Assembly (NCBI GenBank): GCA_029265815.1
Contig: JAJUGU010000012.1
Span: 1 to 50,369, forward strand
Reading direction: 5' to 3'
From: Anaerolineaceae bacterium
GTDB taxonomy: Bacteria; Chloroflexota; Anaerolineae; Anaerolineales; Anaerolineaceae
DNA: 50,369 nucleotides
Within the stretch, counting starts at the first letter, position 1. Each line of letters opens with the position of its first letter. Positions 13,750-16,952 of the stretch are shown here, one piece after another. Under the pieces are notes generated by a model, which was not told the DNA's origin, did no database searches, and was given only the letters and a program-made list of their open reading frames with translations. Position numbers and translations under genes: made by a program.

Positions 13750-14070
13750 GATTTTCTTCGCTTATTTTAACACTCTATACCATTTTGCATTTTCTTATCG
13801 AAAATTTTCGCTCTTTTTTTGCTGATCACATATATTCTATGACTTGACCGGAACGGCAATTTTTCAGAGTGAGGATTTTATTATCCATTGATTCCTATGT
13901 ATTACTCCACAATCGCGACTGTTGAAACAAAACTACTCCATACTCAATTAAGTCTTGCGGGATTATTCAGATGGTTCTGGAAAATCAGAAAACAGGAATG
14001 TTGAGCAGCAGAGGTGATTATCACAGACGTTTTCCGTTATAATAATCCATAACCTAAGAGGAGAAGCCAA
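13750..14070. promoter_or_regulatory. intergenic region with promoter of the selW-like/trpS/dtd operon
   Basis: This 320-base gap holds no credible gene. On the plus strand TATAAT occurs at 14038-14043, followed by an AGAGGAG ribosome site (14057-14063) 7 bases before the ATG at 14071. No convincing -35 box stands at 17 bases. On the minus strand a TAAAAT box lies about 14 bases before the alternative TTG start of the sugar transferase. The remainder shows nothing I can name. Confidence 0.5.
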
Positions 14071-14313
14071 ATGCAGATCACCATCGAGTATTGCGCTGTT
14101 TGACACTACACCACCAGTGCTGCCAGTCTGGCAGCGGAATTGCTCGAAACCTTCGAACCTGTCATTAAAAGTTTGATGCTGATTCCCTCAAATGGAGGAG
14201 CGTTCGAAGTCAAGGTGAACGATAGACTGATTTACTCAAAACTACAAACGAAACGGCATGCCGAACCAGGCGAGGTGAAAGCACTGCTGCGTAAATTTAT
14301 TGAGGAAGGTTGA
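14071..14313 (+). CDS. SelW-like (Rdx family) selenoprotein with in-frame UGA
   Basis: An 80-residue frame from ATG 14071 (ribosome site AGAGGAG) to TGA 14311-14313, interrupted by a TGA at 14101-14103 (codon 11). Reading that codon as selenocysteine gives MQITIEYCAVU-HYTTSAASLA: a beta strand followed by the redox motif CxxU, exactly as in the SelW/SelT/SelH Rdx thioredoxin-like family (IEYC-xx-U). The rest, ending VKALLRKFIEEG, fits the family length of 75-95 residues. A hairpin beginning 16 bases after the UGA (14119-14135) is a candidate SECIS. Rdx proteins are proposed thiol oxidoreductases. It sits 1 base before trpS and about 1.6 kb before selD. Needs selA, selB and selC elsewhere in the genome. 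Confidence 0.88.
14104..14140 (+). promoter_or_regulatory. candidate bacterial SECIS for the SelW-like gene
   Basis: Downstream of the UGA at 14101, GCTGCC (14119-14124) pairs with GGCAGC (14130-14135) around the loop AGTCT. The loop begins 22 bases after the UGA, within the usual range for bacterial SECIS hairpins, and contains GT as the SelB-binding loop often does. It lies inside the coding sequence as expected in bacteria. Folding and SelB binding are untested. Confidence 0.55.
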
Positions 14314-14314
14314 T

Positions 14315-15319
14315 ATGTCAGTTAAAAAAGGCCGTGTATTTTCAGGGGCAAGACCCACAGGACGCCAGCACATCGGTAACTATTTTGGTGCGATCAGTAA
14401 TTATGTGAAATTGCAGGAACAGTACGAATGCGTGTACTGCATTGTTGATCTGCATGCACTCACCACAATGGAAACAACGCAGGATCTGGCAAAGAATACC
14501 CTTGAAATGGCCTGGGATTGGTTGTCTGCTGGAATCGACCCTCAAAAATCCATCATTTTTGTTCAATCCATGGTACGTCAGGTGACCGAACTGCATACCA
14601 TCCTCTCGATGGTGACTCCTCTTGGAAAACTCACTGATCTACCAACCTTTAAAGATAAAGTCCGCGAAAATCCGAAGAACGTAAATTATGGTCTCGTTGG
14701 TTACCCGGTGCTCATGGCGGCAGACATCGTACTTTATCGCGCGGATATGGTTCCAGTTGGTGTGGACCAGTCTCCGCACATTGAATTTACCCGTGAGACG
14801 GTGCGTTCATTCAACTACCGTTACAACACCAATGTTCTCATTGAGCCCAAGATCAAGCTGACGGAATTTCCAAAGATCATGGGCATCGATGGTGTGAACA
14901 AGATGAGCAAGAGCCTTAACAACGACATTGAAATTGCCGCCACCGCTGAAGAGACCAGCGCAAAAGTGATGCAGATGGTCACTGATCCTGCGCGTCTCAG
15001 GCGGTCTGATCCAGGAAACCCTGATGTATGCAATGTGTTTTCTATGCATAAGATTTTTTCCACGCCAGAACAGGTGGAGATGGTCAACACCGAGTGCCGC
15101 CGGGCGGGGATTGGCTGCGTTGATTGTAAGAAGATGATGGCGGCGAATATGAATGCCTACTTCGCTCCCTTGCGCGAAAAAAGACGGGAATATGAAAAGG
15201 ATCCTTCTGCTACGTGGGATATGCTGCGTGAAGGTGCAAAACGCGCAAGTGTATTGGCCGAAGAGACCATGGTCGAGGTCCGCAAAGCTGTTGGGTTGCC
15301 ATCTTTGTTGAAGGAATAA
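14315..15319 (+). CDS. trpS: tryptophanyl-tRNA synthetase
   Basis: 334 residues from ATG 14315, just after the selenoprotein stop. The class I signature appears as [16 protein letters not shown] (about residues 9-24, the HIGH-type motif being HIGN) and as KMSKSLNN near residue 196. Also visible are the tryptophan-pocket region [20 protein letters not shown] and the usual bacterial length. It charges tRNA-Trp. An upstream in-frame TTG at 14300 lies within the selenoprotein gene and lacks support. The gene is in an apparent operon with the SelW-like gene and dtd. Confidence 0.96.
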
Positions 15320-15765: not shown

Positions 15766-15788
15766 AATACGAAACGTTTAATCCTGCG

Positions 15789-15825
15789 CAAGGGCAAACA
15801 ACCGTTTGCCCTTGTTGTCTTTTTT
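15789..15825 (+). terminator. rho-independent terminator after dtd
   Basis: A perfect 11-bp stem (15789-15799 with 15804-15814, loop AACC) followed by TGTC and a T6 run ending at 15825. It separates dtd from the selD promoter. Confidence 0.9.
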
Positions 15826-15884: not shown

Positions 15885-16952
15885 ATGGATATTCCTTCAC
15901 TTCATCCGTCAGGCAAACAGATCCGTCTGACCAGCCTTTCCACCTGCGCGGGTTGAGCCTCGAAACTGAGCGCGGATGCGCTGGCGCAGGTGCTGCGCCC
16001 TTTGCAGGAGATGTTCAATCCGGTTGACCATCCACAGCTACTGGTGGGTCTATCTTCACCTGACGACGCTGCGGTTTGGAAGCTCGATGAGCACCGCGGT
16101 TTGGTTTTAACCACCGATTTCTTTACACCGGTGGTAGATGACCCGCGTGATTATGGCCGAATCGCCGCCGCCAACAGCCTTTCGGATATCTATGCCATGG
16201 GAGGAACTCCATTTCTGGGACTCAATATTGCTGCTCTGCCGGCAGATCTTGACCCTGAGATCAGCGCGCAAATTTTCAGGGGCGGGGCCGAAATTGCGCG
16301 AGAAGCAGGAATGATCATTGGTGGAGGGCATACCATTCAGGATCGCGAACCAAAATTTGGGCTGGTGGCAGCCGGATTCGTTGAGATCGACCAGATGATC
16401 ACCAAATCTGGCGCGCGTCCTGGCGACAAACTTTACCTGACCAAACCGCTTGGGTTTGGCACAATTACCACTGCTTTAAAACGCCAGCAGGCAAGAGAAG
16501 AGGATGTGGCAGAAGCGGTTGATTGGATGATTAAACTCAATCGGCCAGCCAGCGAGGCCGCCCGGCATTGCGGTGTACATGGCGGAACCGATATTACCGG
16601 TTATTCCTTCCTGGGTCACGCTCTTGAAATGGCACAGGCCAGTGGTGTGGAAATGCGTGTGGCTTTCAATCAGATTCCATTGCTTGAAAACGCGGTCAGG
16701 TACGCGCAACAGTATATCTTCCCCGGAGGTGCCTACGACAACCGCAGTTTCTTTGGCAATCAGGTGATCTTTGAGAGGCAAATTGCAGAGCATCTTCAGA
16801 TGATGCTTTTTGACCCTCAAACCAGCGGTGGGTTGCTGTTATGTGTGCCAGAAGGGGAGAGCACAAAATTTGAAGAGATCATGTCGAACAGCAAGAATCT
16901 GTATTGGCAGGTTGGCGAGGTAGTAACCGGTTCTGGGGTAACGATCATCTGA
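15885..16952 (+). CDS. selD: selenophosphate synthetase containing selenocysteine
   Basis: Reading from ATG 15885 gives 355 residues with an in-frame TGA at 15954-15956 (codon 24). Translated as selenocysteine the N-terminus reads RLTSLSTCAGU-ASKLS, placing U exactly at the catalytic Cys/Sec position of SelD (family form GCGC/U-K). Downstream are SPDDAAVW, LTTDFFTPVVDDPRDYGRIAA, SDIYAMGG, GGGHTIQDREPKFGL and GGTDITGYSFLGHA, all SelD/PurM-fold landmarks. It makes selenophosphate from selenide and ATP, the donor for selenocysteine and 2-selenouridine. A frame starting at ATG 15990 alone would lack the catalytic residue. A short hairpin downstream of the UGA may be the SECIS. Confidence 0.95.
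15957..15985 (+). promoter_or_regulatory. candidate SECIS in selD
   Basis: AGCGC (15969-15973) pairs with GCGCT (15978-15982) around the loop GGAT, 12 bases after the UGA at 15954-15956. A short stem with a G-rich apical loop is what SelB recognises in bacteria. The stem is only 5 bp as drawn, so this is tentative. Confidence 0.45.

Follow-up and report, generated by a model that had tools for sequence, protein, structure and literature searches.

A predicted SelW-like selenoprotein gene at the head of a likely selW-trpS-dtd unit in an Anaerolineaceae genome

Genes and features of the locus

The stretch of DNA analysed here (the window) comprises 50,369 nt from an Anaerolineaceae bacterium. 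Its plus strand carries a short gene with an in-frame TGA, followed by trpS, dtd and selD, with these features:

14058..14063, +: ribosome-binding site GAGGAG, read from the sequence
14071..14313, +: selW-like (Rdx) selenoprotein gene, 80 residues plus a TGA stop, predicted from profile matches and a structural model
14092..14103, +: CxxU motif C8-A-V-U11, the putative Sec TGA being 14101-14103; UGA in 105 of 105 aligned loci
14118..14136, +: bacterial SECIS-type hairpin with loop GUC at 14126-14128, from comparative pairing; loop G in 105 of 105 loci
14315..15319, +: trpS, tryptophanyl-tRNA synthetase, starting 1 nt after the selW stop (profile matches)
15029..15127, +: TrpS four-cysteine motif C-x21-C-x6-C-x2-C, a candidate [4Fe-4S] site by motif match (PMC2954223)
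15328..15765, +: dtd, D-aminoacyl-tRNA deacylase (PF02580, 2.8e-54)
15788..15825, +: terminator-like hairpin of 12 pairs with a T-rich tail, the likely end of the selW-trpS-dtd unit
15885..16952, +: selD with an in-frame UGA at 15954-15956 (CAGU), from a profile match and relatives
15969..15982, +: SECIS-type hairpin in selD, 5 pairs, loop GGAU 17 nt past the UGA, also present in relatives L237 and L238

The GAGGAG box is separated by a 7-nt spacer from the ATG at 14071, which is followed by nine more sense codons, the in-frame TGA at codon 11, 69 further sense codons and a TGA stop at 14311-14313. Read-through of 14071-14310 yields a protein of 80 residues. The initial annotation, made from the letters alone, had described a short gene with a good ribosome site and a TGA at codon 11 that standard ORF calling misses. 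That description holds, and the six-frame list contains zero ORFs of at least 60 amino acids on 14071-14299. As a control set we collected the window's TGA read-through frames with at least 6 codons before and at least 35 after the TGA and less than 45% overlap with longer ORFs. Among the 16 such frames, the selW frame ranks first by the strength of its SECIS-like hairpin (-12.0 kcal/mol); the runner-up (-11.3 kcal/mol) is on the strand opposite the beginning of the selD ORF. A Pfam scan of 6 of the 15 other frames, including the -11.3 one, gave zero matches at cut-off, the best being DUF308 at 0.007. A phage origin of the region was considered and rejected, with zero matches among phage records.

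The Rdx profile (PF10262) aligns across the TGA, as had been anticipated, and the protein has a normal family length: with Cys at the TGA, residues 2-75 cover profile positions 1-74 of 74 (1.3e-21), and with X at that site the match is still 2.2e-19. TIGR02174 also matches above its cut-off (6e-17, Cys at the site), while NCBIfam NF041051 scores the protein at 77.5, under its own cut-off of 88. A profile built from 46 relatives finds the structures 2fa8, 3dex, 2p0g and 2obk, and more weakly mouse SelW (2npb, 2.1e-5).

An AlphaFold model made from a 46-row alignment with Cys at the site has a pLDDT of 88.5 and was used in place of an alignment-free run (62.9). Its predicted secondary-structure order is strand-helix-strand-strand-strand-helix. 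In a Foldseek search the first 21 ranks are SelW-related or other bacterial relatives with a query TM of 0.85-0.91, mouse SelW being rank 23; the model thus predicts the thioredoxin-like fold of SelW relatives. The four bacterial structures share this fold (query TM 0.85-0.90) and sequence family at 31-41% identity in structural alignments, and presumably carry Cys at the Sec site.

SelW-like selenoproteins are a known bacterial family (accessible text of PMC1794560 and PMC2398784), to which the window protein adds a member with the same CxxU, length and family profile. It differs in its trpS and dtd neighbours, a setting within the order for which the literature search described below gave no precedent. 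A close precedent for the gene's appearance comes from Epsilonproteobacteria, where, according to the available portion of PMC4607533, SelW genes were missed in annotation and the TGA is followed by a hairpin of 5/6 bp with an invariant loop G. The window gene is alike in both respects and belongs to a different phylum; the term 'trpS' does not occur in the text of that paper.

Conservation of the UGA, the hairpin and the Sec machinery

Our sample consisted of 201 genomes of the order (Anaerolineales), including that of the window. An Rdx match was obtained in 113 genomes; in the other 88 the gene is missing or escaped the search. Among the 118 match rows, 114 contain exactly one TGA; the remaining four start past the Sec site (three paralogues with an LFUN motif, described below, and one row at a contig end). 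Loci of 105 of the 113 Rdx-positive genomes, window included, were read at the sequence level, those left out being G032, G042 (main copy), G055, G063, G076, G143 (cut), G189 and G191. All 105 have U at CxxU and Cys three residues earlier. The base after the UGA is C, A or G and never T in 108 rows, a count that includes the three LFUN paralogues, which were excluded from the hairpin alignment.

The initial annotation had also proposed that a hairpin follows the TGA and might be a SECIS element, and this proposal stands up to comparison with a published model. The window hairpin has 8 pairs, one of them a basal G-U, and a 3-nt loop GUC that begins 22 nt past the TGA; the paired columns, numbered from the T of the UGA, are 18-25 with 29-36. 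The bacterial SECIS model, as given in the accessible part of PMC13188914, calls for a loop of 3-9 nt with an upper stem of 4-16 bp, a G in the first two loop positions, a UGA-loop spacing of 16-37 nt and an MFE of at most -7.5 kcal/mol. The hairpin falls within all four constraints (3-nt loop and 8 pairs, G first, 22 nt, -12.2 kcal/mol), the energy being that of bases 10-48 from the UGA; the hairpin alone gives -12.0 kcal/mol, there with a 5-nt loop and 7 pairs.

As a single fold, the hairpin with its flanks is unremarkable (z -0.27; 69 of 200 shuffles were equally good) and so proves nothing alone; the SECIS evidence is comparative. All 105 loci have G as the first loop base. In the 104 distinct rows, with identical rows counted once, 79.7% of cells are paired against 71.2 +- 0.7 when the 3' letters are shuffled, and cells with double changes number 113 against 31.5 +- 10.5. 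Sliding the pairing partner leaves only 21-51% of cells paired. Since the hairpin RNA is also coding, a second shuffle was restricted to synonymous codons of rows with the same residue: 663 paired cells were observed against 631 +- 4.8, a value reached by 0 of 2000 shuffles. When the count is instead of rows that form six or more of the seven inner pairs, the synonymous shuffle is less clear-cut (66 against 59.5 +- 2.5, reached by 15 of 2000). Both shuffles break sequence relatedness. By these counts the hairpin pairing covaries beyond what the protein requires.

The helix is uneven. All inner seven pairs form in 46 of 105 rows and at least six in 66 of 105; the outermost pair is unpaired in 51 of the 104 distinct rows. 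In 25 rows columns 24 and 30 are G-G and that pair is missing, and many of these fold into a shifted hairpin. RNAalifold predicted zero pairs for the 105-row alignment, perhaps because of the shifted hairpin in about a quarter of the rows; the pairing evidence therefore comes from pair counts and the synonymous-codon shuffle. In the protein, the residues seven and ten codons past Sec (alignment columns 22-24 and 31-33) co-vary, with I-M in 26, V-A in 26, V-T in 14 and T-V in 10 of 104 rows, counted irrespective of relatedness; this is as expected if RNA pairing constrains the protein.

Cys homologues in relatives, which had been hoped for as added support, did not turn up in the order: no Rdx protein with Cys at the Sec position was found in the 201 genomes. 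Outside the order, 30 loci from the phylum were read, 3 of them from the same class and 27 from other classes; 23 have Sec and 7 have Cys at the site, and all seven Cys forms are from other classes. The Rdx search therefore does recover Cys forms outside the order, and their lack is a fact about the sampled order. There, Sec is retained or the gene is absent, without Cys replacement, in what looks like a clean natural experiment. The same tendency has been described for SelW-like proteins generally, their Cys forms being very rare or missing in organisms that contain Sec (accessible text of PMC1794560); ocean samples held 427 Sec forms and 56 Cys forms (PMC2398784, in the part available).

The genome appears equipped to decode such a UGA. 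Its other contigs carry selA (565 bits, above cut-off), selB (340 bits, cut-off 242) and tRNA-Sec (70.9 bits, cut-off 47, with ARAGORN in agreement), on three different contigs, and selD, scored with Cys at its UGA, reaches 363 bits inside the window. The Sec-decoding trait (selA, selB, selC and selD) is thus complete in gene content, which bears out the initial suggestion that the locus implies a Sec machinery, probably an active one judging from these genes. Across the 201 genomes, 103 have both Rdx and an over-cut-off SelB, 10 Rdx only, 46 SelB only and 42 neither (Fisher 4e-10, with shared ancestry uncorrected). Eight of the 10 Rdx-only genomes have tRNA-Sec above cut-off. For the other two, G002 and G066, no tRNA-Sec turned up either; the scoring took in 150 of 643 candidates for G002, and G066 is 87% complete.

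The selD gene presents a second in-frame UGA. Its listed ORF begins too late, at 15990, past this codon. Both the UGA and a like hairpin are kept in relatives L237 and L238; folded singly, the selD hairpin has a z of only -0.74 against shuffles. This UGA (15954) and the selW-trpS-dtd operon are additions to what the initial annotation had claimed.

Gene neighbourhood and the candidate Fe-S TrpS

Gene order was read at 104 Rdx loci, the window and the three LFUN paralogues being excluded. In 87 the next gene on the same strand is trpS, in 12 dtd directly follows selW, in 2 a convergent trpS follows, and 3 end 295-411 bases past the UGA, too soon for a neighbour call. The 87 selW-trpS loci span 9 of the 15 families of the sample, and 65 of them also have dtd within the available flank. 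Counting the window, 59 of 87 loci have a distance of -30 to +20 nt from selW stop to trpS start, as measured with automatically chosen starts; a 4-nt overlap occurs in 15 of 87.

We consider selW likely to be the first gene of a selW-trpS-dtd transcription unit. The region has three terminator-like sites against 2.8 in shuffles, so that their count is no evidence, and the site at 15788..15825 has the longest stem of the three. With this hairpin separating dtd from selD, a common transcript that also includes selD is doubtful; the order dtd-selD occurs in the window, L237 and L238, and the other loci with sequence past dtd showed no selD there.

The operon as a general property of Rdx genes was rejected: trpS or dtd was found in 0 of the 30 phylum loci outside the order, with at most 1.5 kb of flank. 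Likewise, Rdx was found in 0 of 9 loci within the flank of Fe-S trpS genes from Desulfobacteraceae or Deltaproteobacteria (153 bases upstream in the case of L247). For SelW-like genes of metagenomes the reported neighbour is peroxiredoxin (accessible text of PMC2398784 and PMC13188914). A literature search, with most subscription papers outside it, found no paper on SelW with trpS and, judged by title among the papers listed, none on a selenoprotein with TrpRS and D-tyrosyl-tRNA deacylase.

The TrpRS of Thermotoga maritima binds a [4Fe-4S] cluster through C-x22-C-x6-C-x2-C, and its homologues have C-x(21-24) (PMC2954223, in its accessible part). The window TrpS, known here from sequence, fits this homologue pattern with C-x21-C-x6-C-x2-C; it adjoins selW, whereas the accessible text on the T. 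maritima enzyme mentions no selenoprotein neighbour. The motif C-x(19-26)-C-x6-C-x2-C occurs in 76 of 88 TrpS frames of at least 150 aa at Rdx loci, window and two convergent frames included. The 12 frames that lack it comprise 8 of family f9, the 2 convergent ones, L045 and L058. In the eight f9 loci (L104-L109, L111 and L112) the slot behind selW is occupied by a distant, motif-less TrpS with 35-39% identity to that of the window, as if TrpS had been replaced in place; the ninth f9 locus, L110, has the four-cysteine motif. Three genomes with a selW-linked Fe-S trpS, G013 (L184), G062 (L185) and G125 (L186), have a second, motif-less trpS elsewhere.

Among 28 Rdx-negative genomes whose trpS was read, a non-random choice taken among the matches listed, the motif is present in 14 and missing in 14. 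A hidden Rdx upstream of trpS was sought in the 14 with the motif; 13 were informative (G116 has no upstream sequence), and all 13 stayed below inclusion level, with a best E of 0.03 (G128). A strict pairing of Rdx with Fe-S TrpS was accordingly rejected, given these 14 Rdx-negative genomes with Fe-S TrpS, the 8 non-Fe-S f9 loci and the 12 selW-dtd loci. The pattern looks like an ancestral grouping of selW, trpS and dtd in the order, from which selW and the Fe-S TrpS were lost or replaced independently of each other. Part of the gene linkage could come from shared descent alone.

A scan with the TrpS next to selW yielded 11 assemblies titled Anaerolineaceae, Anaerolineae or Chloroflexi, at 70-86% identity. 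An intact Sec Rdx lies just before trpS in 6, none is present in 4, and L246 has a relic. These assemblies overlap with the 201 genomes in at least one case, L245 apparently being the contig of G190 (both 9156 long and with TrpS at 81% identity).

Readings of the locus

Homology, UGA conservation, hairpin covariation, machinery genes and the predicted fold all support the assignment of 14071-14313. By these sequence-based criteria the gene almost certainly encodes a SelW-like selenoprotein of the Rdx family, and the hidden CxxU selenoprotein first proposed for this position is upheld by a full-length Rdx match, C-A-V-U, the hairpin and the machinery genes. We infer Sec insertion, a redox activity with its direction, and a partner along the following lines. 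Ribosomes would reach the UGA at codon 11, where SelB with Sec-tRNA-Sec, placed by the hairpin at 14118-14136, would insert selenocysteine. The product would be a small thioredoxin-like protein whose active site, C-A-V-U, sits in the loop that follows strand 1. It would act as a thiol oxidoreductase in which the selenol of Sec-11 attacks and Cys-8 provides the resolving thiol.

We know of no established cellular role for bacterial SelW-like proteins. The trpS gene order in 9 of 15 families offers a testable lead on the SelW partner; operon linkage suggests where to look for a function and does not count as evidence for one. Since selW is first in the likely selW-trpS-dtd unit, its client may lie in tRNA charging, for example the Fe-S TrpRS. 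SelW might be a dedicated redox partner of tRNA charging that maintains the Fe-S TrpRS, at its cluster or its cysteines, or else something shared with DTD, in the reduced state, while the UGA at the head of the unit ties synthesis of these proteins to selenium supply. This proposal is tentative and on balance unlikely; if true, bacterial SelW would gain a defined pathway. The identity of the enzyme is independent of this guess.

A regulatory role, beside or instead of the enzymatic one, would have the head UGA couple translation of trpS and dtd to selenium supply. The short selW-trpS distances and 4-nt overlaps suit such coupling, but the protein sequence is conserved, half of the Rdx-negative genomes read keep Fe-S trpS without selW, and 12 loci have selW directly before dtd with trpS missing. 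We regard this role as quite improbable; it is compatible with a SelW-like selenoprotein as what the gene encodes.

The 69-codon open frame after the TGA could instead be translated from an internal start, leaving the N-terminus untranslated. Against this, conservation extends to the residues ahead of the TGA, where 46 aligned rows show an invariant Cys-8 and a nearly invariant Tyr-7, and the GAGGAG box fits the ATG at 14071; a fold without strand 1 and CxxU would, moreover, presumably lose its active site. An internal start is very improbable.

It is scarcely credible that this is a decaying Rdx gene, formerly with Cys, whose TGA simply terminates translation. Such decay would agree with the broken-looking relic upstream of trpS in one relative, L246, but the codon is TGA, and never TAA, TAG, TGC or TGT, in 105 of 105 loci, the flanking frame and loop G are kept, and the hairpin pairing is kept beyond the protein sequence. 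Genome-wide reassignment of TGA to another residue (for example Trp or Gly) without Sec, for which we found no support, has a practically negligible probability, given that TGA terminates the Rdx genes themselves in 30 of 88 loci (window included), that Sec machinery genes are present and that the residue is Cys in the 7 phylum loci without TGA.

The SelW-like selenoprotein has two kinds of relatives that depart from the usual form. The relic in L246, a Chloroflexi MAG, lies at about 2370-2500, upstream of an Fe-S trpS; its start is out of frame and its middle missing, while the UHYT part and the C-terminus can be recognised. In this one case the sequence is consistent with a loss that passed through no Cys stage.

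The other is a second Rdx-like gene with an in-frame TGA in (L/I)LFUN, found at L113:1462-1704 (+), L114:1474-1716 (-) and L115:1489-1716 (-) in genomes G042, G075 and G066, which belong to one genus and make up 3 of the 10 genomes of that family. Two of the three match Rdx, at 8e-7 and 7.5e-6. Besides the operon, this paralogue from beyond the window is worth following. It retains Sec but departs from the usual CxxU, the C-x-x ahead of Sec being either lost or displaced. Its loop is shorter by four residues, and there is a conserved Cys at the place of the normal Rdx P-S-x-G-G loop. Possibly the resolving Cys has moved elsewhere in the LFUN paralogue.
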